Virus record (IMG/VR): IMGVR_UViG_3300009183_008543
Location: 1-64,000 of that record
DNA from: a virus
DNA length: 64,000 bases
Reading direction: 5' to 3' (one strand)
Shown: positions 15,753 to 59,100 of the stretch, in pieces
Layout: each line of letters begins with the position of its first letter
Numbering within the stretch: the stretch's first letter is position 1
Notes under the pieces: model-generated
Told to the model about the DNA's origin: nothing
The model's database searches: none
The model's input: the letters and a program-made list of their open reading frames with translations, nothing else
Translations under genes and position numbers: made by a program

Positions 15753-15818
15753 AGTCCTTATGCTTTTGGTTTAACTTCCATGATTATACATTATTTTTTT
15801 GTCAATAATCAATATAAC

Positions 15819-16724
15819 TTATTCAATGTTTTTGTCAATCTGCTGTCGTAAAATGCCAAATGCTTCCCTTAAATTATTGGTAATTGACATTTTACTGTAT
15901 GGCTCATTAGTTCTAGGATTTATGTTATTTTCTGCCATTTTGCTTTGCCAGCCCCAAGAATCATGCATGTATGCCATAACGCAATCTTTTTGTAACTTTG
16001 TAAGGGGAGCAGATTCAATGTCTATTTTTTGAATTTCTTTTGATTCCTTAGCCACAGGATCATTGTTGTCATTTTTGCATTCTGTGTCTATTCTTGCTAT
16101 GTTTGTCGCTTGCATCTGTTGAACAAGGTTATTTCTTTGCTTTTTACTCAATTCCATTAAATCCATAATTTCATTTATAGTCAAATGTGGATTCTGCGAC
16201 CTTTCATTTTCAAAAGAAATCCGAAGAAAATTCCAACGATCAGGCATAGTAATCAATTGTTGCATTCTAGATTTGCCCTGCGATGAACGAAATCTTTGAA
16301 ATGCCCTCTTCAAATACTGAATTAAAGATTTCTCTGGATTAGTAAACAAATAAATTGAATTCAATGCCTTCAAAATAAAATCTTGAAGCAAATCTTCATT
16401 GCCTTTACACCATTTAGCAAATAAACAGTGATAGCCTTCAATTAGGGAAACTTCGATGGTTTTACCATCTAGAAATTGATGATTAACATTCTTGGGAGCA
16501 AGAATATCACTCAAGTCGCCTTGTAAATCTGCGTGTAAATGTTCTGGTATTTCAGACAGGTTAGGTTTTCCAGAAAGTACACTTTCTCTAAATTCTACCC
16601 TATCATTTCTTGCAACCAAATCAGTATACTTCTTTAATATTTTAGCACTTATTGCGAGATGACTTTTGATGTAGTCACGATGTTCGTTAGAAAGAATTCG
16701 ATTCTGAATCTTGTAGTTAGGCAT
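15819..16724 (-). CDS. Sigma-70-like RNA polymerase factor (divergent)
   Basis: A 301-residue protein with a region-2-like helix pair (GNEDLLQDFILKALNSIYLF, then LIQYLKRAFQRFRSS), a region-3-like LTINEIMDLMELSKKQR, and a C-terminal region-4-like segment LTKLQKDCVMAYMHDSWG ending in SITNNLREAFGILRQQI. The match is structural rather than by strict motif. Start has ACGGAGAAATACT. It could be the factor that reads the late-type CATAAATA boxes seen elsewhere in the window (inference). The divergent upstream region 16725-16980 holds repeats and a palindrome. Confidence 0.6.
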   Translation of the reverse strand: MPNYKIQNRILSNEHRDYIKSHLAISAKILKKYTDLVARNDRVEFRESVLSGKPNLSEIPEHLHADLQGDLSDILAPKNVNHQFLDGKTIEVSLIEGYHCLFAKWCKGNEDLLQDFILKALNSIYLFTNPEKSLIQYLKRAFQRFRSSQGKSRMQQLITMPDRWNFLRISFENERSQNPHLTINEIMDLMELSKKQRNNLVQQMQATNIARIDTECKNDNNDPVAKESKEIQKIDIESAPLTKLQKDCVMAYMHDSWGWQSKMAENNINPRTNEPYSKMSITNNLREAFGILRQQIDKNIE

Positions 16725-16980
16725 AGTATTTCTCCGTATGCAGTCAATTAGTAAAAAGTTAGTTCGTTAGTACACTACTAATGTAAGTTTTTGTTTAAAA
16801 TAGTCAATAGTTTTTTACAATATAGTTTAATAGTTTTTACAAAATTTATTGCGTAAGCTCTTATTGTTTAAGGACTTATTGATTCTAAATGAAATTTAAA
16901 ATATCTATAATTTACTATTTTAATCATATGTAAAATTTGATTGTTTTTGATTTAAACGGAAAAATGAATATGGATTTAAA
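16725..16980. promoter_or_regulatory. Divergent intergenic region with palindrome and direct repeats
   Basis: At 256 bases this is the longest gene-free stretch. It holds the palindrome TTAGTA-CAC-TACTAA at 16767-16781, two further TTAGT copies just left of it (16748 and 16759), and a direct repeat of AATAGTTTTTACAA-type units at about 16806-16820 and 16829-16842. It separates the sigma-like gene from the divergent HAD gene. The arrangement fits an operator region controlling one or both. Confidence 0.45.
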
Positions 16981-17376
16981 ATGAATATAATTCATCTTGT
17001 AGAGTTTTCAGAATCAAAAATCATAAGCTTTGATTTTGATGATACCTTATGTTTTGATGGCGAAAAAAATGAAATAATGATAAGCAAATTGATAAATCAT
17101 CACATAGATGGAGATAAATGTATTATCGTTACAGCAAGAGATCCAGAACACGAAAAAGATGAATGGATTCAAAAAAACGAACCAAAACGAACCAAAGTTA
17201 TAAATTTTGTAAAAAAACATAATTTGCCAATAGCACAAATTATTTTTACAAACCATAAGCCAAAAGGTCCAATCTTAAAAAGCCATAATGTTTATATGCA
17301 TTTCGATGATAAAGATGAAGAAATTGACTCTGCTAACAATAGTGGAATAAAAACAATTAAAGTTGAGAAAAAATAA
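16981..17376 (+). CDS. HAD-superfamily phosphatase
   Basis: Motif I is SFDFDDTLCFDG (D18 and D20 as nucleophile and acid), motif II is IVTARDPE, a Lys follows in KPKGPILK, and motif IV acidic residues lie in HFDDKDEEIDSA. The compact 131-residue form without cap resembles phage polynucleotide 3'-phosphatases and small nucleotidases. The stop codon overlaps the next start by one base (TAATG), so the amidohydrolase-like partner is translationally coupled. Confidence 0.75.
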   Translation: MNIIHLVEFSESKIISFDFDDTLCFDGEKNEIMISKLINHHIDGDKCIIVTARDPEHEKDEWIQKNEPKRTKVINFVKKHNLPIAQIIFTNHKPKGPILKSHNVYMHFDDKDEEIDSANNSGIKTIKVEKK

Positions 17377-27390: not shown

Positions 27391-28656
27391 TTAGAATGTT
27401 TTTTCAACAAGTGCTTGATCCACAACCATTTTTCTTTCAAGATTCGTAATATCAAACATAATATCATTCATAACCGCCTCTACAACAGTGCGTAATCCTC
27501 TTGCACCAGTCTTTTTATCTAAAGCTATCTTTGCCATAGTCTTTATGGCTTCTTCTGTGAATTGAAGGTCTACCTCATCGTAGTAAAACAACTTTTGATA
27601 CTGCCGAAGTAAAGCATTTTTTGGCTCCATCAGAATCCGAATCAGATCATCTTCGTTCATTGGATGAATAGGGGCTTGAACAGGTAATCTTCCTACAAAT
27701 TCTGGTATCATGCCAAATTCAATAATATCTTCATTAGTTATATTATTGATAATATCAATCTCGCTAAATTCTTTCTTATCTAATGAAGAAAATCCAATTT
27801 TACTTTTGCCAAGTCTTCTGGAAACTATATCATTAATTCCAGAAAATGTACCTCCGCAAATGAAAAGTATATTTGTCGTATCCACTCTTAAAAAAGATTG
27901 TTCTGGATGCTTTCTACCTCCTTGTGGCGGAACATTGCAAACACTTCCTTCAATGATTTTAAGCAATGATTGCTGAACGCCTTCACCACTAACATCTCTG
28001 GTTATAGACATATTCTTTGATGTTTTTGCAATTTTATCAATTTCATCTATGTAGATAATTCCAACTTGTGCTTTTTCTATATCGTAATTTGTTTCTCGAA
28101 GTAATTTTACAATTAGGTTTTCGACATCTTCGCCTACATAGCCAGCTTGTGTAAGTACAGTTGCATCACCAATTGCAAAAGGAACTTGTAAAAAATCAGC
28201 CAAACTTTTCGCCAATAAGGTTTTCCCACAACCAGTAGGACCAATCATCATAATGTTCGATTTTTCAATCTCAACATCTTGTAATGATTTTGGTAGTTTT
28301 AATACTCCAGAATAATCATTGATTCTCTTGTAATGATTGCTAACAGCAACGGCTAATTTTTTCTTGGCAGATTCTTGACCAACAACATGCTTGTCCAGAT
28401 GACTCACTACATCTTTTGGATCTATGGTAAATTTTCGAACATTAGTTGGTATTATTGACGACTTTTTTTTGGGAAATTCTTTTGATTGTAAAGAAGAATG
28501 AATCAACCCAACACAATTTGAGCAAATATAACTTTTTGATCCAACTTTTTTCCCATTTCTAATTTTAGATAAGGGAGAACTCTCCAACAATGTTGATCCA
28601 TTTGCTGCTGTTTTTTCACAAAACTCACACCAGAAACTATTCTTAATTTTTGACAT
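27391..28656 (-). CDS. clpX: ClpX-type AAA+ unfoldase
   Basis: 421 residues, the usual ClpX length. N-terminal zinc-binding domain with C10/C13 and C45/C48, then Walker A GPTGCGKT near 138, Walker B IIYIDEIDK near 199, pore-loop GYVGED, sensor and arginine-finger regions. An IGF loop (KIGFSS near 286) is kept; in cellular ClpX it docks on ClpP. No clpP is in this window, so it could work with host ClpP or alone. Start behind AAGGAGTGCAAA; the longer frame is rejected. Confidence 0.92.
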   Translation of the reverse strand: MSKIKNSFWCEFCEKTAANGSTLLESSPLSKIRNGKKVGSKSYICSNCVGLIHSSLQSKEFPKKKSSIIPTNVRKFTIDPKDVVSHLDKHVVGQESAKKKLAVAVSNHYKRINDYSGVLKLPKSLQDVEIEKSNIMMIGPTGCGKTLLAKSLADFLQVPFAIGDATVLTQAGYVGEDVENLIVKLLRETNYDIEKAQVGIIYIDEIDKIAKTSKNMSITRDVSGEGVQQSLLKIIEGSVCNVPPQGGRKHPEQSFLRVDTTNILFICGGTFSGINDIVSRRLGKSKIGFSSLDKKEFSEIDIINNITNEDIIEFGMIPEFVGRLPVQAPIHPMNEDDLIRILMEPKNALLRQYQKLFYYDEVDLQFTEEAIKTMAKIALDKKTGARGLRTVVEAVMNDIMFDITNLERKMVVDQALVEKTF

Positions 28657-29853: not shown

Positions 29854-30333
29854 TTATGCACAGAATTTCATAGTTCCATCAACCTTTTCCTGTCGCAATA
29901 CCTTATTACGAACATGAATATTTAAAGATTGATATACATTATTGGCAAAATTCTTTGCACTGCTCTTATATCCATGCTTAAGTGCAAGATCAGCAACTTC
30001 AGCATAGGTCAAAGGATGTTTTGATTCACTAACAATTTTTTGAACTAATGCTGGCAAACTACTTGGTTTGTCAATAGAAGAACTAGAAGCTATTACATCC
30101 TTTACACGACTAGGCTTTCGTTTTGTTGAATTCTTTTTTGCTGTGGATTTGCTTCGATTCGAATAATTCTTTTCTGGTTTAGCCACAGTCTCTTCAACAT
30201 CAATACCTTTAAATAACATATTGATTTTCTGTTCATATGGAAGAATAGCTTCCATTTTTTCAATCAAATCACCAAGCATCTTGTGCTGGTTCTTGTAAGC
30301 ATTTAGCTTTTCTTGCAAAATATTAGAACTCAT
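29854..30333 (-). CDS. HARE-HTH/winged-helix-like protein
   Basis: 159 residues: a coiled N-terminus (residues 1-45), a basic Lys/Ser/Arg-rich linker (about 60-95, histone-tail-like), and a C-terminal winged-helix-like domain LPALVQKIVSESKHPLTYAE and GYKSSAKNFANNVYQSLN. The order matches HARE-HTH type DNA-binding modules. Start at 30333 behind TGGAGATTGTGGTC; the upstream ATG at 30348 overlaps the Shine-Dalgarno and is rejected. Confidence 0.6.
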   Translation of the reverse strand: MSSNILQEKLNAYKNQHKMLGDLIEKMEAILPYEQKINMLFKGIDVEETVAKPEKNYSNRSKSTAKKNSTKRKPSRVKDVIASSSSIDKPSSLPALVQKIVSESKHPLTYAEVADLALKHGYKSSAKNFANNVYQSLNIHVRNKVLRQEKVDGTMKFCA

Positions 30334-30530
30334 GACCACAATCTCCAAATGTCATTTGTTTTTTGTATTTGTAGGATTAATGACCAAATCCATACAAATC
30401 TATAATAACCACAGTTTAATCTTAACACTTTAGATAAGATCGTAAAGTTAAAGTGATAAATTTTTTTCAAAATATATAAAAATACAATATACACACTAAA
30501 TTATAAGTACTGACTAACAAAGGAATTAAA

Positions 30531-30713
30531 ATGCTAGTACTATCAAGAAAAAAAGATGAAAAAATTATTTTAAAGCATCCAGATATGCCAGACATTAAAA
30601 TCACTATAGTAAGAATTGATAATAGAAATAAAGTTAGAATAGGTATTGAAGCAGACAAAGAGATCACTGTTATTCGTAGCGAACTTGAAGTCACTACATG
30701 TAACAACGATTAG
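30531..30713 (+). CDS. csrA: CsrA-type carbon-storage/translation regulator, copy 1
   Basis: 60 residues beginning MLVLSRKKDEKIIL, followed by KITIVRIDNRNKVRIGIEADKEITVIRSE: the whole five-strand CsrA pattern, with the RNA-binding LSRK at the N-terminus and the VIRSE element at the end. CsrA dimers bind GGA motifs in mRNA leaders and alter translation. Shine-Dalgarno AAAGGAATTAAA. Overlaps the convergent zinc-ribbon gene by 20 bases. One of two copies here. Confidence 0.92.
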   Translation: MLVLSRKKDEKIILKHPDMPDIKITIVRIDNRNKVRIGIEADKEITVIRSELEVTTCNND

Positions 30714-30990
30714 GAACCTTGGTTTCACGAAGATATACAATAAATTCATCGTGATTTAAACTGTCAATATTTATCTTTTGGTCAATAATTAAAGATTCTT
30801 GATCTGATAATTTTAATTTATTTTTTATCTGTTCAAATGTATAGTTCTTTTTTCTGACTATCCAAGCTGCTGCTAGTAACCTCGACTGTGCAGATGAATC
30901 GAAAAGCACATTACAATAAGTACAAATACATATTCCATCTTGAAGAGGTTTAGGTAACGAGTTACCACAATTCGGACAGGCATATATCAT
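30694..30990 (-). CDS. Zinc-ribbon protein
   Basis: 98 residues with N-terminal CPNCGNSLPKPLQDGICICTYCNVLF, a four-Cys zinc ribbon of the kind found in DNA- or RNA-polymerase-associated proteins, followed by helices. The longer frame from 31071 is rejected because it runs through the terminator hairpin at 31013-31044. CATAAATA lies five bases before this ATG and there is no Shine-Dalgarno, so a leaderless message is proposed; an ATG at 30996 is the alternative. Confidence 0.65.
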   Translation of the reverse strand: MIYACPNCGNSLPKPLQDGICICTYCNVLFDSSAQSRLLAAAWIVRKKNYTFEQIKNKLKLSDQESLIIDQKINIDSLNHDEFIVYLRETKVPNRCYM

Positions 30991-30995
30991 TACCA

Positions 30996-31003
30996 TATTT
31001 ATG
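30996..31003 (-). promoter_or_regulatory. T4-late-like promoter box CATAAATA
   Basis: CATAAATA on the minus strand, five bases before the ATG of the zinc-ribbon gene and just past a terminator. Same box and spacing as upstream of the 36354-36965 gene. Confidence 0.5.
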
Positions 31004-31012
31004 CATATCAAT

Positions 31013-31044
31013 AAAAAAACCCCACCATATAGTGGGGTTTTTTT
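31013..31044. terminator. Bidirectional terminator
   Basis: Stem CCCCAC (31020-31025) / GTGGGG (31032-31037) flanked by seven A on the left and seven T on the right, so it can work on either strand. It closes the ParB-like gene on the minus strand. Confidence 0.85.
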
Positions 31045-31055
31045 ATTTTGACACT

Positions 31056-32285
31056 TTAACTGGGAAAACACTTCTTCAAAATCTTAGAACAATCTTCATC
31101 TCCGTCATGAATTCCCTTGATAATCTTGACAATTGTCTTTAAAACATCTGTTTTTTCAATCTTTTCTGGTAATGAAAACATTGGCTCTGATTCAAGACAA
31201 GCACAATCATTTCTTTGCACCCTTGTCAAATAATCAAGATAATTATTCTTGATTTTATTTTGAGTCAAAGATTTTGGCTTCGAAACTTCAGAACTTCTAT
31301 TTGAATTGCCAGAAGATTTAATTGCAGCGACCACATCTTTGCCCTTGGTTGATTTGCGATTCTCTTTCTGACGAGTAACAGCATCAGCAACTTTGGCACT
31401 AGCTTTTTCAAAAGTGTGTTCTGCTTCAAAAATTTCTTCATCACTACCTTGAACAGTAGCAACTTTTACTTCTACCAAAGCAATTTCTTTTTCCCGATTC
31501 GCCCTTTCAATCCTTCTTTCATCACGCTCGCTACGAACCTTATTCTTTTCTTCGCTTATGGCATTAGCTTTTTCACGAATTTCACTTCTTTCTTCAACAC
31601 TATCAATGCTAGACAACTTAATGGCAGCAAGAAGATTGATCCTTCCTTCAAACAAATCATTTAAAGTTGCGGGATCAAGTTTCTTTACAAGTTCTTCGGT
31701 ATCTTTCAACCAAGACTTATTCTTTTGAAGAATAGCAAGGATTTTGTCATCTGGAGCTTTATACTTTCGCAATTCCATCAACAAGGCAATATCATGACCT
31801 TCGTTGAAGTTTTTGCGACAAGCGTTTTCGCTATAACTGTAAGACAAAGCCTCAAAATCATCTTCGGTACGATAAATTTGACATGGAATAGAAGCGTAAA
31901 CTTGACTTGCCTGTTTCCAAGCATATTCCTTATTGCCTTTTTTATCTTCAATGATTTGAGAACAATCTTTCACAACAATATTGTTTTCCATCAAATAGGA
32001 TACAGCCCTATATCTTCTTTCGCCACCAACGAGTTGGATCTTGCCTTCTTCTTGCATCCACCTGCAAATTATAGGAACCATCAACCCTTTATCTTTAATA
32101 TCTTCACGAAGAACTTCTGATAGTTCACTATCAATCAAATCGTTTTGACCCTGCTCGGTATATCTTCGAGGATTCTCGAATCCATATTTACCAGAGTTAC
32201 TATCATTCTCGGCAATTTCAATCAGATCAAAAGGAACAAGATACAGAGTTCCATGAAGATGCTTAATGCTGTCTGGAAGATTCAT
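31056..32285 (-). CDS. ParB/Spo0J-like nuclease-fold protein
   Basis: 409 residues. The ParB N-terminal domain is visible: YLVPFDLIEI..NPR, LREDIKDKGLMVPIICR, and the GGERRYRAVSYL box near 95-105 that binds CTP in ParB. A helical centre with FNEGHDIALLMELRKYKA follows, then a long charged coiled coil (about 215-290) and a C-terminal domain. It could partition the genome or act as a regulator. No parA is in the window. Start at 32285 behind AAGGAGTGTCAGT. Confidence 0.8.
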   Translation of the reverse strand: MNLPDSIKHLHGTLYLVPFDLIEIAENDSNSGKYGFENPRRYTEQGQNDLIDSELSEVLREDIKDKGLMVPIICRWMQEEGKIQLVGGERRYRAVSYLMENNIVVKDCSQIIEDKKGNKEYAWKQASQVYASIPCQIYRTEDDFEALSYSYSENACRKNFNEGHDIALLMELRKYKAPDDKILAILQKNKSWLKDTEELVKKLDPATLNDLFEGRINLLAAIKLSSIDSVEERSEIREKANAISEEKNKVRSERDERRIERANREKEIALVEVKVATVQGSDEEIFEAEHTFEKASAKVADAVTRQKENRKSTKGKDVVAAIKSSGNSNRSSEVSKPKSLTQNKIKNNYLDYLTRVQRNDCACLESEPMFSLPEKIEKTDVLKTIVKIIKGIHDGDEDCSKILKKCFPS

Positions 32286-32474
32286 ACTGACACTCCTTCG
32301 CATAATGGGATTGACATCCGTTTCAAAAAACCACTCAAATTACCTACAACGGCAAATTGATCTGAGCTAGAATATTCTCATTTGCCAAAGTTGTCAATAC
32401 CAACAATCTTTTTATTTTAAAATTTAAATTTTTGACAATTAATGAATTTTATGTGAGTCGTATAGATCTAACAA

Positions 32475-33419
32475 TCACTTTTTTTTGTGAGAAGAAATCT
32501 CAGAAACCCAAAATGAAAGATCTAGCTTTTCCCATTTGAAATTTGACCATGCATCTACATATGACCGCAATTTTATTGATAAATCGTGACTATTAAGCTT
32601 AGAAAACGCATTCCAATCATCAACTTCCCAAACAGGAAGACCATCATAAATTCCATTTATTGGGAGCTTCTGTATCACAGGTATTCTACCAAGTGACAAA
32701 ACCTCCCAAACTCTGTGGGTATCGTATCCTTCCCCGGCAGGGCAAATTACGAAAGCGGAAGATTTCATCGATAGCCAAAAATTACATCTACTGGAAAGTG
32801 ACAACCATTTTATCCATTTTACCTCACGCAAAGATTCGTATATTGGAATACGAATACTCGCTCGCCTCTTTGGTGTGTTCATAGCCAAATGAAAATTAGC
32901 TAAAACAGGAATAGCATCACAATTTGATATTGGTAAAATATTATTACGCAGTTCGATCAGTTCTCTCTCCTGATCCTCCGCAGTCATGCCTTTGTTGCCC
33001 CAAGGATGATCAGAAACAGATCTAAATAAAGTGTGGTAGTCAATTCCTATTGGTATAGAACCAAACTTAAATCCAAGGCAATTATTCTGTGTATAGACTG
33101 CCAGAACCTTGTCACTATCCAGCAGTCTCTGAATTGTCTCATCTGAATAGTCATATGGCATAATCTTATCATCACCATTAACTACTATCACCATAGGATT
33201 GGAAAATCTATCAAGTAGTTTTGAAAATCTGGCTACCTCATTGCCATGTACAAATACAGTATTTCCATAGAGATTATCGGCTTTCCAACCGTGTGTGACA
33301 TCATTATTTTTATATTTTGGAGGTTGATCACAGGAAAGTGCTATGCCAATGGAACTGACGATGGAGCATAGATGTTCTGTATGTTTTAAACCCACCGCCT
33401 CTTGATTATTCCGTAGCAT
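32475..33419 (-). CDS. Exostosin/GT47-like glycosyltransferase
   Basis: 314 residues, GT-B type. The C-terminal half holds SSAFVICPAGEGYDTHRVWEVL and LGRIPVIQ, the GT47-like nucleotide-sugar site; the N-terminus is an acceptor domain with NTVFVHGNEVARF. In the middle, RRASIRIPIYESLREVKWI is conserved in relatives. TATAAATA lies about 40 bases before the start. Likely adds a single sugar; donor unknown. Confidence 0.7.
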   Translation of the reverse strand: MLRNNQEAVGLKHTEHLCSIVSSIGIALSCDQPPKYKNNDVTHGWKADNLYGNTVFVHGNEVARFSKLLDRFSNPMVIVVNGDDKIMPYDYSDETIQRLLDSDKVLAVYTQNNCLGFKFGSIPIGIDYHTLFRSVSDHPWGNKGMTAEDQERELIELRNNILPISNCDAIPVLANFHLAMNTPKRRASIRIPIYESLREVKWIKWLSLSSRCNFWLSMKSSAFVICPAGEGYDTHRVWEVLSLGRIPVIQKLPINGIYDGLPVWEVDDWNAFSKLNSHDLSIKLRSYVDAWSNFKWEKLDLSFWVSEISSHKKK

Positions 33420-33432
33420 TATGTGTCCATAA

Positions 33433-33630
33433 TCACATTTTATTTGATTTATATAAATTATTTATAGCTTTTGTAATTGCATTTTCCTTTGTAGAAAAAA
33501 CAATTGCTCCACAAAAACCACAAATTAAATTCAAATCATCATCAAAAGAAAAGCTTTTGTCTCTAAGATGCTTACAGCAACTAGGACAACTTTTTTCTTT
33601 TGGTATGTGATTTTCCAGAAATGATGTCAT
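33433..33630 (-). CDS. Small zinc-ribbon protein
   Basis: 65 residues with CPSCCKHL and CGFCGAIVF, a zinc ribbon, and a short helical tail. Start at ATG 33630, behind AGGAAAG; the first 50 bases overlap the csrA gene in another frame, so both are co-translated from one message. Confidence 0.6.
   Translation of the reverse strand: MTSFLENHIPKEKSCPSCCKHLRDKSFSFDDDLNLICGFCGAIVFSTKENAITKAINNLYKSNKM
33459..33466 (-). promoter_or_regulatory. T4-late-like promoter box TATAAATA
   Basis: Exact TATAAATA on the minus strand, about 40 bases before the exostosin-like gene and inside the last codons of the zinc-ribbon gene. Confidence 0.4.
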
Positions 33631-33775
33631 CTTGTATTTCTTTCCTAAATACAGGTATATCAGTAGGAGCATCAATGCCAAGTCTAACCTTTCCATTGGC
33701 TGCTTCAACTAAAGTTACGATGATATTATTATTGATTACTATACTTTGATTTACTTTTCTAGATAAAATAAGCAT
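33581..33775 (-). CDS. csrA: CsrA-type translation regulator, copy 2
   Basis: 64 residues: MLILSRKVNQSIVINNNI, VTLVEAANGKVRLGIDAP and VFRKEIQDDI give a full CsrA fold, ending in a short basic tail. It differs from copy 1 in both the loop and the tail, so the two likely do not have the same RNA targets. Start behind AAGGACGGACAAACC; this leader contains a GGACGGA sequence, a possible CsrA self-binding site. Confidence 0.9.
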   Translation of the reverse strand: MLILSRKVNQSIVINNNIIVTLVEAANGKVRLGIDAPTDIPVFRKEIQDDIISGKSHTKRKKLS

Positions 33776-33831
33776 GGTTTGTCCGTCCTTGAAAACCTTT
33801 TTTATAACTCATTACAATCATAACCATACAA

Positions 33832-33884: not shown

Positions 33885-34043
33885 TTAGAAGAGTCTTTGA
33901 TTACATACAGTAACAGCAGCAACATAAGCTCCCCTCATGGCGCTACAAAGAACATTCAATTTAGGGCAACTTGGGTAAAAGTATCTCCAAGTAGCTACAG
34001 TATAAGTCGCTTGACCTTGATATTCGCCTGTTTTACAACGCAT
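33885..34043 (-). CDS. Small Cys-containing protein, 52 residues
   Basis: Begins MRCKTGEYQGQATYTVATWR and ends with VCNQRLF. GGAGG lies four bases before the ATG and a strong terminator follows 22 bases after the stop, so this short gene is convincingly expressed. Four Cys (positions 3, 26, 33, 47) and a beta-rich pattern; no signal peptide. Family unknown; a small virion or secreted factor is possible. Confidence 0.7.
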   Translation of the reverse strand: MRCKTGEYQGQATYTVATWRYFYPSCPKLNVLCSAMRGAYVAAVTVCNQRLF

Positions 34044-47123: not shown

Positions 47124-50100
47124 TCACACATAAAATTGGGATTGTGGTTCGGGTCGAAGAGACGATATATCAATAATATTCGTGTCGAGACTAATATTTC
47201 TATCAAGTATTCTGCAAACAAAGTCATTGGCATCCCAATAAGTTCCCTTAAATATATTTAACTCATCATAATAACTGAATGTGTCTACATTAATTTTAAG
47301 ATCATTTGTAACATACTCTGGTCTAAAGTGAAAGTCAAATGTAAAATCTATTCCAAAACTTGTAAATTTATTGCATAAATCTTCTGATGGAAATAAAACA
47401 AAAAGTCTAGCATCTGTATTACTTCCTGTTTGCAAATTGATTCTTTTTGCATAAAGACCAAATTTCCACATAGATGATGATAAAACATCTTCTCCGTATT
47501 GAGATATACAAGACCAGTCAAAATTAATATGCCAAAGTTCCTGAGCATTAGAATTATCACTTCCTATGCCACGAAGATGCAATGAATATTGCCAACTATT
47601 TGTAATAGTATTATAAAACAACTGTAAAGATTCTGGTATCTTAAGATTATTTCGTAATAAAAAGTCTTGCAATATATTTGCACTGCCTAGATTGGTTCTC
47701 ATGTACAATGTTTCTGGTATCGCATCACAATTGCCACATGTGGTTGTTATGTTTTGCGTAATAGCAGCCAAATCTGTCACAAAATCTTCAGCATAAGCAA
47801 TTTCTAAAAAATCAATCTCAGTAATAACCCCCATGGATATATCATCGACATTTAATGGCGAATCATAAGTTCCAGACAAATAAATTGATCCACTACCATC
47901 AAATGCATAACCCGGAACAACATATTCCGAGTCTCCTCCCAAAGATATTGGCGATAATAAAGATGTATACCAAAAATCTCCAGCTATAGAATCTCTTGTA
48001 GATGCTGCATCTCCCAAAGTAATAGGAACCGAATCATCTACTGGAATTTCAAAAGATGCAATTCCAATGTCAATTGAACCATCCAAAATTATGGTTCCAC
48101 TTCCCTCATAAGATTGATATGGAGAAATTGCTTTCGCTGAACCACCAATTGAAACTGTACCCAAAGATTCAAATATGTAAATATTTCTTGAATATATAGA
48201 ATTTCCATAAACATACATTAATCCATCTACATATGGTTTAATCGGATAATCAGCACTTCCGTAAACCACAACTCCTGCATAAGATGGATATATATATCCT
48301 AATCCAGTAGACGCAAAACTCAATTTAAATTCGACCAATGACTCATTTGAAGTTGTAATACCACCAGAAGTATTATACTTATAATAAGGACTTACTGGTA
48401 TGGATTCGCCTTCTAAGGTTATAGATCCTGATGATTCGTAGTTGTAGTTTGATAGTGATATCAAAGCAGAATCATCTATATAAACATTTCCATCTCCCAC
48501 ATAAATATAAAATGCACATAAAACTTCAGAAGATCCAGAGGTTGAAATATTTCCGCTAGAAATATATTTTCTTTCTAAATTTGCTTGAGAATTTATTGTT
48601 ATTCCGCCAGATGCCTCGTAATACGACAATTCAATAATTCCAGTTTTTATGCCCATAGAAACTACTGTTGTTGCAACAATAGTGAATGGTATGCATTCTG
48701 GTATTTTTGAAAATGGAACTGAGACGAATTCATTGCTTGAAGGTACTGGCAGTCCATTTATTGCAATTCCTGTTGAACCTATGGCGACAAAAGAATTAAC
48801 AGGATGAATTGATCTTTGAATGTCTGCTATTGGCCAAGTCCAATTGACATCAGTTAAAAACTGGCAAACTTCTCCTAAATCTCTAGCAACAATCTCTTGA
48901 AACATTCTGTTCAAACCATTTGGTATTGCACAAAATGGAATATTATCACAATTGTAGTACTCAACACCAACAACCCTAAATGTTCTTAGTGGTAATTCTC
49001 CAACATTAAAATTAAATGTTTGACTAAATTCAAATTGTTTATAAATATCAAAATTAAAATCAAAATTAAAAAAAACAGAAACGGTTGGATTAGTATAAGC
49101 CACATAACTTAAAGATATCTTCCCATTTCCAACAAAATTAATACTTGAATTACAAATAGCATTTCCAGATATTAAAATTTCTCCAGAACCAACAAGTGGT
49201 ATTAGTGTGGTGAGAGAAATTTCTTCGCCAATAGACTCTGGAGATCCGTGAGAAATTGGTCTAAAATAATATTTTACTCCTGAAATCAAATTGGAAATAG
49301 TCACTCTATGTTCAAAAACCAAATTGCTATCTTCTACTGTCGAATATGCATATCCATAAGTAGGACTTTCACCTAAACCTGAGCGAGAAACAGTATCGTA
49401 AACAACACGACTAGTCGAAGGAGTATTCGTAATCCAAGATATTGTTATCAAAGTAGTCGTTGAAGTAGCTTTTGAAATAGCTGAGACTGCACTTATTACT
49501 GGAGGCTCTTTTGGACTTATGGAGCTTTCATAGCTCAGAATAACTCCTCCATCAGCAATGACGCTAAGATTTAAATTAACAATAGCTGTTCCAAATATTA
49601 TAATATTTTCAGAATCAGAAATAAAAGTCAAAGCATATTCGAATAAACTATTTGCGTCATTTGTGCCACTTGGAGTTGTAACCAACACACTTGCAGAACC
49701 AAGAACATTAGAATCTGTGATCGCAATGATAGTATTCGAGTCCACGACTGTAAATTCGATAACAGCAATGCCACCAATTGTGACTTCTGTAGTTCCCGTA
49801 AAATTTTCTCCAGTAATCGTAATCGAAGTTCCGCCAGATATAGAGCCATTAGACGGATAAACGCTGGTTACTGTAGGTGGCACTTCAATGTATTCGAATA
49901 AGCTATTTGCGTCATTTGTACCACTTGGCGTTGCGACCAACACACTTGAAGAACCAAGAACATTGGCACCTGTGATAGCAGTGATAGTAGTCGAATCCAC
50001 GACTGTAAACTCGGTAACAGCAATGCCACCAATTGTAACTTCTGTAGTTCCAGTAAAATTTTCTCCAGTAATTTCAATTGAAGTTCCACCCAATGTTGAT

Positions 50101-53100
50101 CCGCCAGAGGGAGAAACGCTGACTACTGTAGGTGGCACTTCAACATATTCGAACAAACTATTTGCATCATTTGTACCACTTGGCACTATAACTAACACGC
50201 TAGAAGTTCCAGCAACATTAACATCTGTGGTTGCAGTGATGGTGGTCGGATTAACTACTGTGAACTCAGTAACAGCAATGCCACCAATTGTAACTTCTGT
50301 AGTTCCCGTAAAATTTTCACCAGTAATCGTAATGAAAGTTCCGCCCAATGTTGATCCACTAGATGGAGAGACGCTGGCTACTGTGGGAGCATTTTCAATG
50401 TATTCGAACAAAATATTTGCGTCATTTGTACCACCTAGCGTTGTAACTAACACACTTGCGGGACCAGCAATATTAACATCTGTGGTTGCAGTTATAGTGG
50501 TCGAGTCAACAACTGTAAACTCAATAACGGCAACACCGCCAATTGTAACTGATATCACATCAGCAAAATAAGTTCCAGTAATCGTAATTAAAGCACCACC
50601 TGATGTAAATCCACTAGATGGAGAAACGCTTGCTACTGTTGGAGAAGTTTCAATATATTCGAAAAAACTATTCGCATCATTTGTGCCACTTGGCGTTGTA
50701 ACCAACACACTTGAAGAACCAGCGACATTGGCATCTGTGGTTGCAGTTATAGTGGTTGAGTCAACGACTGTAAACTCAATAACGGCAACGCCACCAATTG
50801 TAACTGATATCACATCAGCAAAATAAGTTCCAGTAATCGTAATCGAAGTTCCGCCTAATATAGAACCACTAGACGGAGACACGCTCGACACTGTCGGAGT
50901 AGTTTCGACATATTCGAACAAACTATTTGCTTCATTTGTGCCACTTGGAGTTGTGACCAACACACTTGCGGAACCAACAACATTGGCACTTGTGGTCGCA
51001 ACAATGGCTGTAGAATTCACGACTGTAAATTCGGCAACAGCAACGCCACCAATTGTGACTTCTGTCGCATCAGTAAAATAAGTTCCAATAATTGCAATCG
51101 AAGTTCCGCCTAATGTTGATCCACTAGACGGAGACACGCTTGACACTGTCGGAGTAGTAACAACATATTCGAACAAACTATTTGCTTCATTTGTGCCACT
51201 TGGAGTTGTGACCAACACACTTGCGGAACCAGCAACATTGACATCTGTGGTAGCAGTAATGGTGGTCGAGTCAACAACTGTAAATTCAGTGACGGCAACG
51301 CCACCAATTGTGACTGCTGTCGCATCGGTAAAATAAGTTCCAGTAATCGTAATAGAAGTTCCACCCAATGTCGATCCACTAGAAGGAGACACGCTTGAAA
51401 CTACGGGCAGTACTAAAACATATTCGAACAAGCTATTTGCATCATTTGTACCGCTTGGAGTTGTGACCAACACACTTGCGGAACCAGCAACATTGACATC
51501 TGTGGTTGCAGTTATAGTAGTCGAGTCAACAACTGTAAATTCAGTGACGGCAACGCCACCAATTGTAACTGCTGTCGCATCGGTAAAATAAGTTCCAGTA
51601 ATCGTAATCGAAGTTCCACCTAATGTCGATCCACTAGACGGAGACACACTTGCTATTTCTGAAATAGGTAATGTATAAAGGAAAATAGTTGTTTCGTCAT
51701 TTGTACCGCTTGGAGTTGTGACCAACACACTTGCGGAACCAGCAACATTGGCATCTGTGGTTGCAGTTATAGTAGTCGAGTCAACAACTGTAAATTCAGT
51801 GACGGCAACGCCACCAATTGTGACTGCTGTCGCATCGGTAAAATAAGTTCCAGTAATCGTAATTGAAGTTCCGCCTAATGTTGATCCACTAGACGGAGAA
51901 ACGCTTGATACTGTAGGAGCAGTTTCGATATATTCGAACAAACTATTTGCATCATTTGTACCGCTTGGAGTTGTGACCAACACACTTGCGGAACCAACAA
52001 CATTGACATCTGTGGTTGCAGTTATAGTGTTCGAGTCAACGACTGTAAATTCAGTGACTGCAATACCACCAATTGTAACTTCTGTAGTTCCCGTGAAATT
52101 TTCTCCAGTAATCGTAATCGAAGTTCCTCCCAATGTCGATCCACTAGAAGGAGAGACGCTTGATACTGTAGGAGAAGTTTCAATATATTCGAACAAGCTA
52201 TTTGCGTCATTTGTACCGCTTGGAGTTGTGACCAACACACTTGCGGAACCAACAACATTAGCATCTGTGGTTGCGTTAATGGTAGTCGAGTTCACGACTG
52301 TAAATTCAGTAACCGCAATACCACCAATTGTAACTTCTGTAGTTCCCGTGAAATTAGTTCCAGTAATCGTAATAAAAGTTCCGCCTAATGTAGATCCTCT
52401 ATATGGAGAAACACTGGCTACTGTAGGTGGAACAACAGAATAGGTAAACAAACTATTTGCACTATTTGTGCCACTTGGAGTTGTGATCAACACACTTACA
52501 ATTCCAGCAGATCTAGCAGATATGATTGCTGTTATGGTGGTTGAGTTTACGACAGTAAAAATAGAAACTGGAGAGCCACCGATTGTAACTGCTGTTGCTC
52601 CAGTGAAATTTGCTCCAGTAATCGTAATGGAAGTTCCGCCCAATGTTGATCCGCTAGAAGGAGAGACGCTTGATACTGTGGGAGCAGGAGCCACATAAGT
52701 GAACCAGTGATTTATGTTTCCATCACTTGTTCCTCCTCCAGTTGTAACCAACACACTTGCAAGACCAGCAACATTTGCCGGGGTAATTGCGGTAATAAAG
52801 GTTGGACCAATAACGGTAAGTCCTATTCTGCAAAAAGATGTCAGAAAGTTCTTGCTTGGACCTATTTGCCCTCTGGCTAAAAAAGAAAAAGAAATTAAAT
52901 CGTTGACATTCACCATTAAAGAGTCAGAAGCTTGTACATTGGCAGAAGCGCCGACATATACTCCGTTGACTTGAACCGAAGCTAAAATGGCGTTAGTATG
53001 ATCCCCATATGGCCAAGATATGCTGATATATAAATGTCCAGCCTTGACAACTTTTAGCGTTGCCCTTAATGATACTGGACTAGAGGTTGGGTAATCAGTT

Positions 53101-56100
53101 CCAAGAAAAAAATCACTATCTACTTCATACAAAAAAGCAGGATTACTAGAATAGACAGTCTCAAAAGGCATTATGACTTTGGTCGAGTTCACAACGGTAA
53201 AACCAGTGGCGGCAATGCCACCAATGGTAACTGCTGTTGTTCCCGTTAAATTAGTTCCATTGATCGTAATGAAAGTTCCACCCAATGTTGATCCGCTGGA
53301 TGGAGAAATGCTGTTTATGGAAGGGGGAGGAGCCACATAAGTGAACAAACTGTTTGCACTATTTGTGCCTCCTGCTGTTGTGACCAACACGCTCGCAGTT
53401 CCAGCAGTTCTGGAACCTATTTTGGCGTTTATGGTGGTCGAATTGACAACTGTAAAGGTAATGACCGAAACGCCACCAATGGTTACTGCTGTCGCTCCCG
53501 TTAAATTAGTCCCAGTAATCGCAATCGAAGTTCCGCCCGATATGGAACCACTAGATGGAGAAACGCTTGCTACTGTGGGAGCAGGAACCACATAAGTGAA
53601 CAAGCTGTTTGCACCATTACCACCTCCATCTGTTATGATCAATACGCTTGCAGTTCCAGCAGATCTAGCAGATGTGGTTGCCGTTATGGTGGTTGAGTCA
53701 ACAACGATAAAACTGGCGACTGAAAATCCTCCGATTGAAACTGCTTTCACCCCCGTGAAATTTACTCCAGTAATCGTAATCGAAGTTCCACCCAATGTTG
53801 ATCCGCTAGAAGGAGAAACACTTGATACTGTGGGAGCAGGAACAATATAAGCGAATAAGATATTTGCGTTACTTGCACCTCCAACTGTTGTGACCAATAC
53901 ACTTGCTGTTTCGGCAGTTCCAGAAGATCTAGAAGATATTGTTGCCGTTATGGTGGTTGAGTTCACAACAATGAAACTGGCAACGGCAACTCCTCCAACT
54001 GTGACTGATATCACATCGGCAAAATAAGTTCCAGTAATCGCAATTAAAGTTCCTCCGAATGTTGATCCGCCAGATGGGAAAACTCTGGTTACTACAGGAG
54101 CAGGAACGATATATTCGAACAAGCTATTTGGACTATTTGTGCCACTCGGAGTAGCTACTAGCAGACTTGCATAGCCAGCAACATTGGCTGCTATAGTAGC
54201 GGTGATGGTCGTTGAGTTCACAACGGTAAAACTAGTAACAGAGATGTCGCCAATGGCAACTGCTGTCGCTCCCGTGAAATTTGCTCCAGCAATCGTAACC
54301 GAAGTTCCTCCGAATGTTGATCCGCTAGACGGAGAAACGCTTGCTACTGTAGGAGCAGGAATATAAGTAAACAAACTGTTTGTGTCATTTGTGCCACTTG
54401 GCGTTGTGACCAGAACACTTGCAGTTCCAGCAACATTAGCAGCTATGATGGCGGTGATAATAGTCGAGTTTACAACGGTAAAACTAGTGACAGAGATGCC
54501 ACCAATGGTAACTGCTGTCGCTCCTGTAAAATCTGTTCCGGTAATCGTAATTGAAATTCCGCCTGATGTGAAACCAGTAGATGGAGAGATGCCGACTACA
54601 GTAGGTGGCACTACGGCATAAGTAAACAAGCTAGTTCCAGTATTTGTGCCACCCGCTGTTGTGACCAATACACTTACAATACCAGCAGATCTAGCGGACG
54701 CAATTGCGGTGATAGTAGTTGAATTCACAACGGTAAAACTACTAGCTAAAACTCCACCGATTATAATTGCTGTCGCTCCTGTGAAATTTGCTCCAGTAAT
54801 CGTAATCGAAGTTCCGCCCAATGTTGATCCACTAGACGGAGAAATACTTGCTACTGTGGGAGTAGGAATCACATAAGTCAATAGGCTGTTCGCACCATTT
54901 GTTCCACTTGGTGTTGTGACCAAGACGCTTACAGTTCCAGCAGATCTGGCGGATGTGATTGCCGTTATGGTAGTTGAGTTCACAACAATAACGCTAGTGG
55001 CTAAAACTTCACCGATTGCAACTGCTGTTGTTCCCGTGAAATTCGTTCCAGTAATCGTGATCGAAGTTCCTCCGAATGTAGAAGCGTTAGACGGAGAAAC
55101 GCCGGCTACTGTAGGTGAAACAACAGAATAAGTAAACAAACTATTTGCACTATTTGTGCCACTTGGAGTTGTGATCAACACACTTACGATTCCAGCAGAT
55201 CTAGCGGATATGATTGCTGTTATAGTGGTTGAGTTTACGACAGTAAAACTAGCGACAGAAACGCTTCCAATCGTAACTGCTGTTGCTCCAGTGAAGCTAG
55301 TTCCAGTAATCGTAATGGAAGTTCCGCCCAATGTCGATCCACCAGATGGAGAAATGCTGGCTACTGTAGGAGCAGGAACGGCATAAGTGAAAAAACTGTT
55401 TGTACCATTTGTTCCACTCGGAGTCGTGATCAAAACACTTGCAGTTCCAGCAGATCTAGCGGATGTGGTTGCCGTTATGGTGGTCGAATTCACAACGGTA
55501 AAACTAGTAACAGAGATGCCACCAATCACAACCCCTGTTGCTCCAGTGAAATTAGCTCCAGTAATCGTAATAGAAGTTCCGCCAAATGTTGATCCACTAG
55601 ATGGAGAAATGCTGGCTACTGTAGGTGGTATTACAACATAAGTAAATAAGCTGTTTGCATGACTTATCCCACCCGCTGTTGTAACCATTACACTTGAAGC
55701 ACCAACAGGTCCAGCTGGTACGATTGCCGTTATGCTGGTTGAGTTAACAACGATAAAACTAGCGACTGGAAATCCTCCAATTGTTACCGCTGTAGCTCCC
55801 GTGAAATTTACTCCAATAATTGCAATGGAAGTTCCACCCAATGTTGATCCACTAGATGGAGAAAAACTAGATATTATAGGTGGAACTACAATATAAGTAA
55901 ACAAGCTATTTGCACCATTTCTACCACTAGGTGTTGTCACCAAAACACTTGAAATTCCAGCAAATCTAGCTCCTATGTTGGCGGTTATGGTGTTCGAGTT
56001 CACAACCGTAAATCCAGTGGCGGCTACGCCACCGATTGTTACCGCTGTCGCTCCTATAAAACTGGTTCCTGTAATCGTAATGGAAGTTCCACCCAATGTT

Positions 56101-59100
56101 GATCCACTGGATGGAGAAACGCCAGATACTGTAGGTGGTATTGCGACATAAGTGAACAGGTTGGTCACTGTAGGTGACCCAGATCCAAGAATGTTATAAA
56201 CTATTACATTTACATTTCCAAAAGATCTAGCTGCCGTGACTGCTGTGATGGTGGTGGAATTCACAACAGTAAAACTAGTGACTTGAACACCACCAATTCT
56301 CACATCTGTTACTCCAATTAGGTCGGTTCCAGTAATCGTAATGAAAGTTCCACCTAGTGTTGATCCACTAGACGGAGAAACGCTGGTTACTGTAGGTATC
56401 ATGATGGCGTAAGCAAACAAGTTGTTTGGATTATTCATGCCACTAGGCGTTAAGACAAGAACACTTGCAGTACCAACGGGATATAAATCTCCTCCATATC
56501 CTGCTCTGGTAGCGGTGATGGCTGTGATGGTGGTCGAATTTACAACAATAAAGCTAGCAACTGAAATTCCAATCGTAACTGCTGTTGCTCCAGTAAAGTT
56601 AGATCCAGTAATCGTAATGGAAGTGCCTCCCAATACGAAACCGCTAGATGGAGAAACGCTGGTTACGGTAGGAGGAATTGCAGCATAAGTAAATAATGTT
56701 GCTCCGGTATTAGTGCCACTAGGAGTCGTAATATATATACTTGCGTTTCCAGCATACCTAGGAGCTATAGTGGCTGTGATGGTAGTTAAGCTTATGACAG
56801 TAAAACTAGTTACCGAAACTCCACCAACAGTAACCGCTGTCGCTCCAATAAAATCAGTTCCAGTAATCGTAATGACAGTTCCACCTAATGTTGATCCACT
56901 CACTGGTAAAAAATTAGTTATAGATGGAGGAATTGCAACATAAGTAAACAAGCTGTTTGCATTATTTGTGCCACTTGCCGTTGTGACTAATATACTTGCG
57001 GCTCCAGCAGATCCAGCAGATGTTGTTGCCGTTATAGTGGTTGAGTTCACAACGGTAAAACTAGTGACTGGAACGCCACCAACAGTAACTGCCGTAGTTC
57101 CCGTAAAATTAGCTCCGTTAATTGCAATTAAAGTTCCACCTAATTTTGATCCACTAGATGGAAAAACGATGTATGGTGTTGGTGAGGAAACAGTCAAATC
57201 GTATACTGCCAAAGAACTTGTGTATTTAGTTGGATTTAATTTCGTATTTAAAACAGAAACATAAACATTTGCACCGTCTGGTGAAACAAAAATATTTTCA
57301 GGATTTTCATACGATGAAACATTTTGCTGAACTGTATTGATTTTAGTCAACGAACCATTTGAAACATTTCTGTTTAAAATTATAATTTTTCTGTACCCAG
57401 ATAGATTCACTCCAACATAAAAATTCTTTCCATTAGGAGAAATGCAAACAGAAGTGCAAGAACCAGAACCGGCAGGAGATGTCAAATTCAAATCGAATGT
57501 TGTACTGACAGTCAACCAGCTACCACCAGTGGTTTCTGAAATACAATCGAATATTGAAATCTTATCGTTATTGTTTACATAAACAAATCTGCTATCTGAA
57601 GAAATTGCGACATCGTTGATTATATTTCCAATCTGTGGTAGATCTCGCCTAATCCCGAAACTAATAGTTCCAGCTGGTTGCAACTGCGAAACTTGATCTT
57701 GAATGATACCTAAAGCCGAAATTGAACCTCCTCCACTGATGTAAATACGCAAACCATCAGGAGAAGCATAAACTCCATTGATTCCACTTCCATAATTGTT
57801 TCTTTTTTGACCACCATAATACTTAAGGCTGAATGCATTGGAAAATAACAAATCTCGGTTCATGCTGAAATTGCCAATCAAAACACCTGTGATGGAATCC
57901 CTCTTGAACATGGCGATTGAAACATAATTAGCAGGATCATCAAGGTTGTTGGGAGCCGTTGTTTCGCCTCCTTGACCATTGCAAGCCACATAAACATATT
58001 TTCCGTTAGGCGTTATGCAAATCGCAGCAGGATTGATATTAGCCCAAGGGCTTTTTATTCCGGTAGAAATCCTAGATGTTCCTTCGATCAATAATCCCGT
58101 CAAAGCATCTCTGTAAAACATAGAAATCTTATCTCGATGCAAAACATACAAATTTTTCCCATCTGGAGATGCACATATATCGACAGGTAGCGAACCAACA
58201 GATGTGTTTGAATCCAAACTAAACAAACCAGTACTAAAATTTTTAGAATAAATAGATATTTTACTGTCAAAATTGCTGTTAAAAGTAAGTGCGTAAATAT
58301 TCATTCCATCTGGAGAAATACAACTTTTTAAGCCACTAAAATCGTTTGCGACTATTTGTTTTTGTGACAGCCATGGTTTTGATTCAGATTCAAAGTAAGT
58401 TAAATTTTTATCGATAGTTATATTTGTATTTTGGGATGTAACAGAAATCGCAGCATTTCCGAGAGTTTTTGGAGGCACTAGAACAGCAATGATTTTTGAG
58501 TCAATACCGTAAAATGTAGTGGCTGTTATACCTCCAACGGCAACAGCGGTTACTCCAGAAAAATTAGGACCAGTAATATAAACCAATTCATTGCCCAATG
58601 TGGAAACACCAGATGGGTAAATGTCAACAGACGCAAGTGCGTTTGCCTCATATTGAAAAATATTGATATTATTTGTGACATTTGTTCCATTGGGCGTTGT
58701 CACCAAAACTATTGCAGGTCCAGCAACATTGACTGGTACAATTGCGGTTATAGTGATCGAATTGACAACTTTAAAGCCAGTATCAGCAATGCCTCCAATT
58801 GTCACTGCTGTCGCTCCAGTGAAATAAGCACCAGTAATCGTAATAGAAGTTCCGCCCAATGTCGATCCGCTAGACGGAAAAACGCTAGTTATCTGAGGTA
58901 AAGGAGAAAGTGTCGATTCTCCATTTCCTCTATTGAACATTGAAATCGTTTTTTCGCCATTACTGATGGAATAAAGACTGTCTCCTGCAGCGTTTATGAC
59001 ATAAACGCTGTTTCCGTCTGACGAAATAATGATATCTACTGGATAGATCCCAGTAGGAATATCTATTGATTTCCCAAAAGAACCTGTTTGTGGATTTACG

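Follow-up and report, generated by a model that had tools for sequence, protein, structure and literature searches.

Two csrA genes in a phage contig

The stretch of DNA analysed here, which we call the window, is the first 64 kb of a linear IMG/VR virus contig of 136,406 bp. A record-wide search finds exactly two csrA genes on the whole contig, csrA1 (copy 1) and csrA2 (copy 2), and both lie in the window. The preliminary description of the DNA had read them as CsrA frames of 60 residues on the plus strand and 64 on the minus strand; its coordinates proved exact, and both proteins match Pfam CsrA (PF02599) above the curated cut-off of 27 bits. The two genes and their neighbours are as follows.

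27391..28656, minus strand: f4, a ClpX-like AAA+ protein and conserved block gene (Pfam AAA_2, 99.2 bits, plus ClpB_D2-small)
29854..30348, minus strand: f7, a conserved block gene of 164 aa with no Pfam match, upstream of csrA1 and divergent from it
30531..30713, plus strand: csrA1 (copy 1), 60 aa, Pfam CsrA 57.8 bits
30694..31071, minus strand: f2, a conserved zinc-ribbon protein convergent with csrA1 (CPNC...CxxC motifs by reading), present in 15 loci
31056..32285, minus strand: f3, a ParB-N domain protein between both csrA genes (Pfam ParB_N, 33.6 bits), present in 15 loci
33581..33775, minus strand: csrA2 (copy 2), 64 aa, ordinary CsrA architecture, Pfam CsrA 72.8 bits
33836..33870, no strand assigned: a terminator-like hairpin upstream of csrA2, read from the sequence as an inverted repeat between A and T runs

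The record carries a phage replication set comprising a DNA polymerase III alpha-like protein, DnaB-like and other DNA helicases, a UvsX/RecA-like recombinase, a single-strand binding protein and ThyX. Its scanned proteins include no terminase, portal or capsid protein, so the contig probably represents only part of a larger genome. Adjoining csrA2 is f10 (window 33885-34043, minus strand), a conserved 50-residue Cys-containing protein that recurs in L121 (8153-8959) as the C-terminal portion of a protein of 268 aa. Further along the window, positions 47124-60083 on the minus strand form one open reading frame that encodes 4319 aa. In L004, a SpoVR-like protein (353 bits; 15770-17347, minus strand) adjoins one that matches a PHROG annotated as 'sporulation protein'.

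The two proteins and their evolution

Membership of the CsrA family is secure for both proteins. The preliminary description had the copies differing throughout, which is fair at 40% identity over 53 aligned residues (copy 1 has 4+1 extra residues), yet they are clear homologues. Monomer models support a CsrA fold for both, with RsmE (2mfc/2jpp) and CsrA structures as the best PDB matches, and the residues to which the same description had tied RNA binding, the N-terminal LSR and the R44 type, are all kept in the alignments (L4, R6 and the R44-type position).

CsrA2 is of the ordinary type. Across 17 relatives R44 is invariant and L4, R6 and K7 stand at 90% or more; the window protein has VFRKE at the VHRE/D position, where most relatives have VHR. 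Its model (pLDDT 88.6) finds its best PDB matches in RsmE, CsrA and RsmA.

CsrA1 has hallmarks of its own: a longer stretch before the second strand, an IDNxNKVR motif and V(L/I/V)RSEL replacing VHREE. In an alignment of 22 sequences L4, R6, K7 and R49 (the R44 of E. coli) are invariant, as are the stretches MLVLSRK, ID..N.VR and R.EL. The VHRE/D motif around R44, which is common in the CsrA/RsmA family and not universal, is absent from the window protein (VIRSE there), and its His is also absent from several cellular CsrAs. Because the H43A substitution weakens RNA binding by RsmQ (PMC9928087), the missing His may mean that binding by CsrA1 is altered. The AlphaFold model of CsrA1 has a pLDDT of 83 and RsmE–RNA as its best PDB match, a weaker structural match than that of CsrA2 (E 0.008, TM 0.66, monomer model). 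From the short tail we had suspected that the C-terminal helix was lost, an idea set aside when the model retained a helix, at low confidence, at residues 50-57. The csrA1 proteins of L015, L016, L020, L025, L026, L030 and L035 have in common a C-terminal tail near RAPIGQISAETA, possibly a partner-binding peptide; those of the window lineage lack such a tail and terminate in ND.

A profile built from copy 1 scores all its members above 73 bits and everything else at 61 or below, and every collected cellular CsrA scores better to the ordinary CsrA profile than to the csrA1 profile. All finds of the subfamily are in viral contigs (up to 595 kb) or in one misbinned phage contig. CsrA1 thus looks, by sequence comparison, like a phage-dedicated, slowly evolving CsrA subfamily, distant from any host CsrA.

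Strong purifying selection acts on csrA1, and csrA2 is evolving faster. Where dN/dS is measurable it is 0.025-0.09 for csrA1 and 0.14-0.18 for csrA2. Between the window and its two nearest relatives the synonymous sites of csrA1 are saturated, with the protein still 78-83% identical. In the same five phages, identity to the window is 68, 63, 48, 35 and 43% for csrA2 against 83, 78, 77, 78 and 75% for csrA1. The preliminary description had also proposed a phylogeny against host CsrA. In a tree of 62 columns, copy 1 makes up one side of a branch whose support (73/88; 70% of bootstraps) is not strong, and the window csrA2 falls within a clade of eight phage csrA2 (95/96), in a region common to Planctomycetota and phage CsrAs and apart from Pseudomonadota. 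We rejected naming a host from that position, 62 columns being insufficient. We likewise rejected the host suggested by the best 'cellular' match (80%), a contig binned in a Neisseriaceae MAG (L123, RXKI01000134.1), as this is a phage contig by synteny: its gene order is that of a piece of the same phage group, so the MAG either contains contaminating sequence or took in the phage along with its host during binning.

The convergent pair in related phages

A copy 1 query recovers 63 related loci in viral contigs of 10-533 kb, with identity reaching at least 75% in 19 of them. From the annotated collection it recovers a single record, LR756511.1, a 595-kb uncultured phage that carries no annotation. 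In 20 of about 35 records, the window's included, one copy-1 and one copy-2 gene lie 2-13 kb apart on opposite strands, always convergent; with near-duplicates (G003-G005, G013/G015/G016, G006/G007, G032/G033) taken into account, these represent about 14 distinct lineages. The second csrA of G014 is 127 kb distant, and G017 (527 kb) has three copies, the third (L113 2907-3113) about 91 kb from the pair. Records with copy 1 and no copy 2 include G011 (533 kb), G022, G024 and LR756511.1. When the clade was searched with the ParB-like gene instead of CsrA, 16 of the 17 records recovered were already known csrA1 carriers, so the pairing is not merely a product of csrA1-based searching, though the ParB-like query alignment was itself built from paired loci.

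Around the pair lies a conserved block. The order common to 20 related loci runs, on one strand, csrA2, f6, f5, the ParB-like f3, the zinc-ribbon f2, then csrA1, f7, f9, a glycosyltransferase and the ClpX-like f4, with csrA1 the lone gene on the reverse strand. The window block is without f5 and f6, and some relatives have extra genes inserted; LR756511.1 keeps f4, f7, csrA1, f2, f3 and f5, with csrA2 missing.

Could both genes be host-derived passengers without a dedicated role, their pairing persisting by chance in closely related phages? It is true that csrA2 varies, is lacking from some records and is placed close to Planctomycetota CsrA in the tree. Against this stand the saturated synonymous sites and low dN/dS of csrA1 and a synteny maintained across contigs of up to 595 kb, and we disfavour the passenger explanation, which strikes us as very improbable. 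Since 19 other contigs have homologues of both genes in matching relative positions and csrA1 dN/dS is low, the pair is not due to chance. By gene content and order, the two-CsrA state is instead an inherited trait of a clade of large and huge phages and not a local accident.

Leaders, self-repression and targets

A single CsrA dimer bridges RNA sites 10-63 nt apart, 10 nt being the minimum; glgC is repressed through one site at its Shine-Dalgarno (SD) sequence and another upstream, and E. coli csrA is autoregulated through translational inhibition (PMC7652899). The window leaders offer the following candidate sites.

30520..30524, plus strand: AAGGA (an ANGGA) over the csrA1 SD, with no second GGA within 90 nt upstream in the window
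32294..32321, minus strand: candidate CsrA site pair in the f3 leader, ACGGATGT at -36 (ACGGA(TGT)) and AAGGA at -13
33782..33790, minus strand: AAGGACGGA, two overlapping ANGGA at the csrA2 SD, ending 6 nt before the ATG

It was the copy 2 leader, with its GGACGGA, that the preliminary description had proposed as a site of self-repression. The AAGGACGGA is indeed there, near the SD. As a repressor site it is weak, because only 4 nt separate its two GGAs, less than the 10-nt bridging minimum, and the two also make up the SD. At this position the nearest relative, L102, has AGGGATGGA and most others a single ANGGA SD, 15 of 17 csrA2 leaders having an ANGGA there. Given the terminator-like hairpin upstream, the csrA2 leader is predicted to be about 60 nt or less.

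The stronger signature belongs to csrA1. An ANGGA stands at -10 to -13, the SD, in every one of the 29 distinct csrA1 leaders, compared with about 26% of 2398 genes in seven of these phages. A second ANGGA at -40 to -19 is found in 15 of the 29, against 3.5 expected, and none of 2000 dinucleotide-preserving shuffles reached 15; the leaders of related phages are not independent samples, and in the non-redundant set the figure is 10 of 23 against 2.6 expected. The second site lies 10-27 nt above the SD site, typically as CAAGGA 10-17 nt above it. These 15 leaders thus have the bridging layout, an SD GGA plus a site 10-63 nt off, with many pairs closer than the optimum spacing, which lies above 18 nt. 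Window csrA1, with its SD site alone, is not among them. Five of 277 conserved genes near the locus have both sites closely spaced, and all five are csrA1. When the 115 families present in at least four of the seven phages (2398 genes) are ranked by dual sites, csrA1 comes first and the ParB-like f3 second (2/6, with presence and spacing of the pair differing among phages); beyond these, no family has more than one dual-site member. Applied to phage leaders, the scan proposed in the preliminary description showed dual ANGGA enriched at csrA1 and gave no phage-wide signal; the predicted hairpins are inconsistently placed in csrA1 leaders. The best self-repression signature, and the one with statistical support, sits at the csrA1 leaders of related phages, not at csrA2. 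In many of these phages csrA1 probably holds down its own translation.

Paired ANGGAs might simply be strong or dual ribosome-binding sites that raise csrA1 translation. The ANGGA at -11 is SD-like and purine-rich leaders are common, but an upstream site at -22 to -29 is too distant to serve the csrA1 start codon as an SD, and the layout occurs in at most two members of any other family; we give this idea scant credence. Nor is it probable that the dual-ANGGA leaders answer to host CsrA, with csrA1 silent until infection shifts host CsrA levels. CsrA proteins in general recognise ANGGA (PMC7652899), and csrA is present in 43 of 60 sampled Pseudomonadota and 16 of 40 sampled Planctomycetota genomes; the layout nonetheless singles out csrA1 among 115 phage families, the usual pattern of autoregulation. 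Dual ANGGA also occurs in leaders of loci where csrA2 was not found (L025, L026, L031 and L036), which makes CsrA1 itself the likely regulator.

The reading that we favour, with reasonable though incomplete confidence, is an autoregulated phage translational repressor, CsrA1, accompanied by a variable second CsrA. The locus would encode two CsrA-family translational regulators, predicted to bind GGA and inherited together by a clade of large-to-huge phages. A CsrA1 dimer would bind ANGGA sites overlapping ribosome-binding sites and, in about half of the csrA1 relatives, would bridge the upstream ANGGA to its own SD, capping its own translation. CsrA2 is an ordinary CsrA that evolves faster; most relatives keep its gene on the strand opposite csrA1 and some lack it. 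The two would presumably divide the labour. Several observations count against this reading: the window csrA1 leader has the SD ANGGA alone, an ANGGA at the SD also serves normal ribosome binding, upstream GGA is not in excess across the phage, neither a decoy RNA (Rfam) nor FliW was found, and CsrA1 lacks the VHRE His.

Which mRNAs, then, would the two proteins act on? Upstream ANGGA is not enriched across the phage: of the record's 172 leaders 24 have one, where shuffling predicts 19.9 (95% limit 26), and we dismissed a phage-wide GGA regulon on that count. With no such excess, host mRNAs are the likelier main target, by analogy with the plasmid protein RsmQ (PMC9928087). Both CsrAs would most probably work in trans to reset translation during infection. 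Host mRNAs would make up the bulk of their targets, alongside a small number from the phage, among which the mRNA of the neighbouring ParB-like gene is the best candidate. No CsrB/RsmZ-type decoy RNA gave an Rfam match at the gathering threshold, a result with which a decoy of undescribed type, or a host-derived one, would be compatible. We also rejected as decoys the tightest ANGGA clusters, near 41.7 kb and 85.8 kb on the minus strand, since called genes overlap them. FliW was found in none of the 20 records searched.

There are more elaborate possibilities. One that we hold tentatively is a dedicated two-protein Csr circuit, in which a phage-only, self-limiting CsrA1 of altered RNA preference and a replaceable, host-like CsrA2 would reprogramme host translation through GGA leaders, independently of host Csr. 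More doubtful is an early/late translational switch worked by CsrA1 and CsrA2 jointly, through putative heterodimers or mutual sequential repression. The convergent pairing is conserved, an ANGGA SD is usual in both sets of leaders (29/29 csrA1, 15/17 csrA2), and there is a precedent in an unusual CsrA member acting in series with RsmA in Pseudomonas aeruginosa, according to a title cited in PMC8545117; against a joint switch, the four records named above have CsrA1 without CsrA2.

Relation to known Csr systems

The preliminary description called CsrA uncommon in phages, and in isolated phages so it is: an E. coli CsrA query matches 85 of 50,697 INPHARED records, each at one place, and CsrA was reported in 30 of 2517 phages (PMC7366521). 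Its view that two copies are rarer still needs correcting for this clade of large and huge phages, in which two is the common state. The phage CsrA homologues already described (RsmM type in Pseudomonas phages; PHROG 9500, 'CsrA-like regulator') are likewise phage-carried (PMC7366521). Those in INPHARED come mostly from 39-64 kb Pseudomonas and Vibrio phages and are near host Rsm proteins, whereas here there are two copies in a fixed convergent layout, one of them from a subfamily distant from host CsrA. Our search of the open-licence literature found no published account of the csrA1 subfamily or of the csrA pairing, phage and plasmid CsrA being known.

With bacterial CsrA, RsmA and RsmE both proteins have in common the fold, the equivalents of L4, R6, K7 and R44, and the logic of GGA in leaders. 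CsrA2 differs little from canonical CsrA. In CsrA1 about 4-6 additional residues precede the second strand, IDNxNKVR replaces the usual xxRGDKVR and V(L/I/V)RSEL replaces VHREE; it was found nowhere but in phages. Several CsrAs per genome are also seen in Planctomycetota and Pseudomonas (11 and 13 in two planctomycete genomes); those paralogues are cellular, and none prefers the csrA1 profile over the ordinary one.

Translation genes are known from huge phages, where they are thought to redirect the host's ribosomes (PMC7162821, the text of which does not mention CsrA), and phages with the csrA pair may run a translation-control circuit of their own. Through a small, testable protein, a phage-specific CsrA that is conserved and whose leader looks self-limiting, huge phages could select the mRNAs that are translated. 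The closest parallel is RsmQ, the plasmid-encoded Pseudomonas CsrA, a mobile-element homologue that acts on host mRNAs through GGA/AnGGA (PMC9928087). Unlike CsrA1, RsmQ is near the chromosomal Rsm proteins and has the VHRE motif; the phage-specific CsrA would extend this use of CsrA by mobile elements from plasmids to the largest viruses of bacteria.
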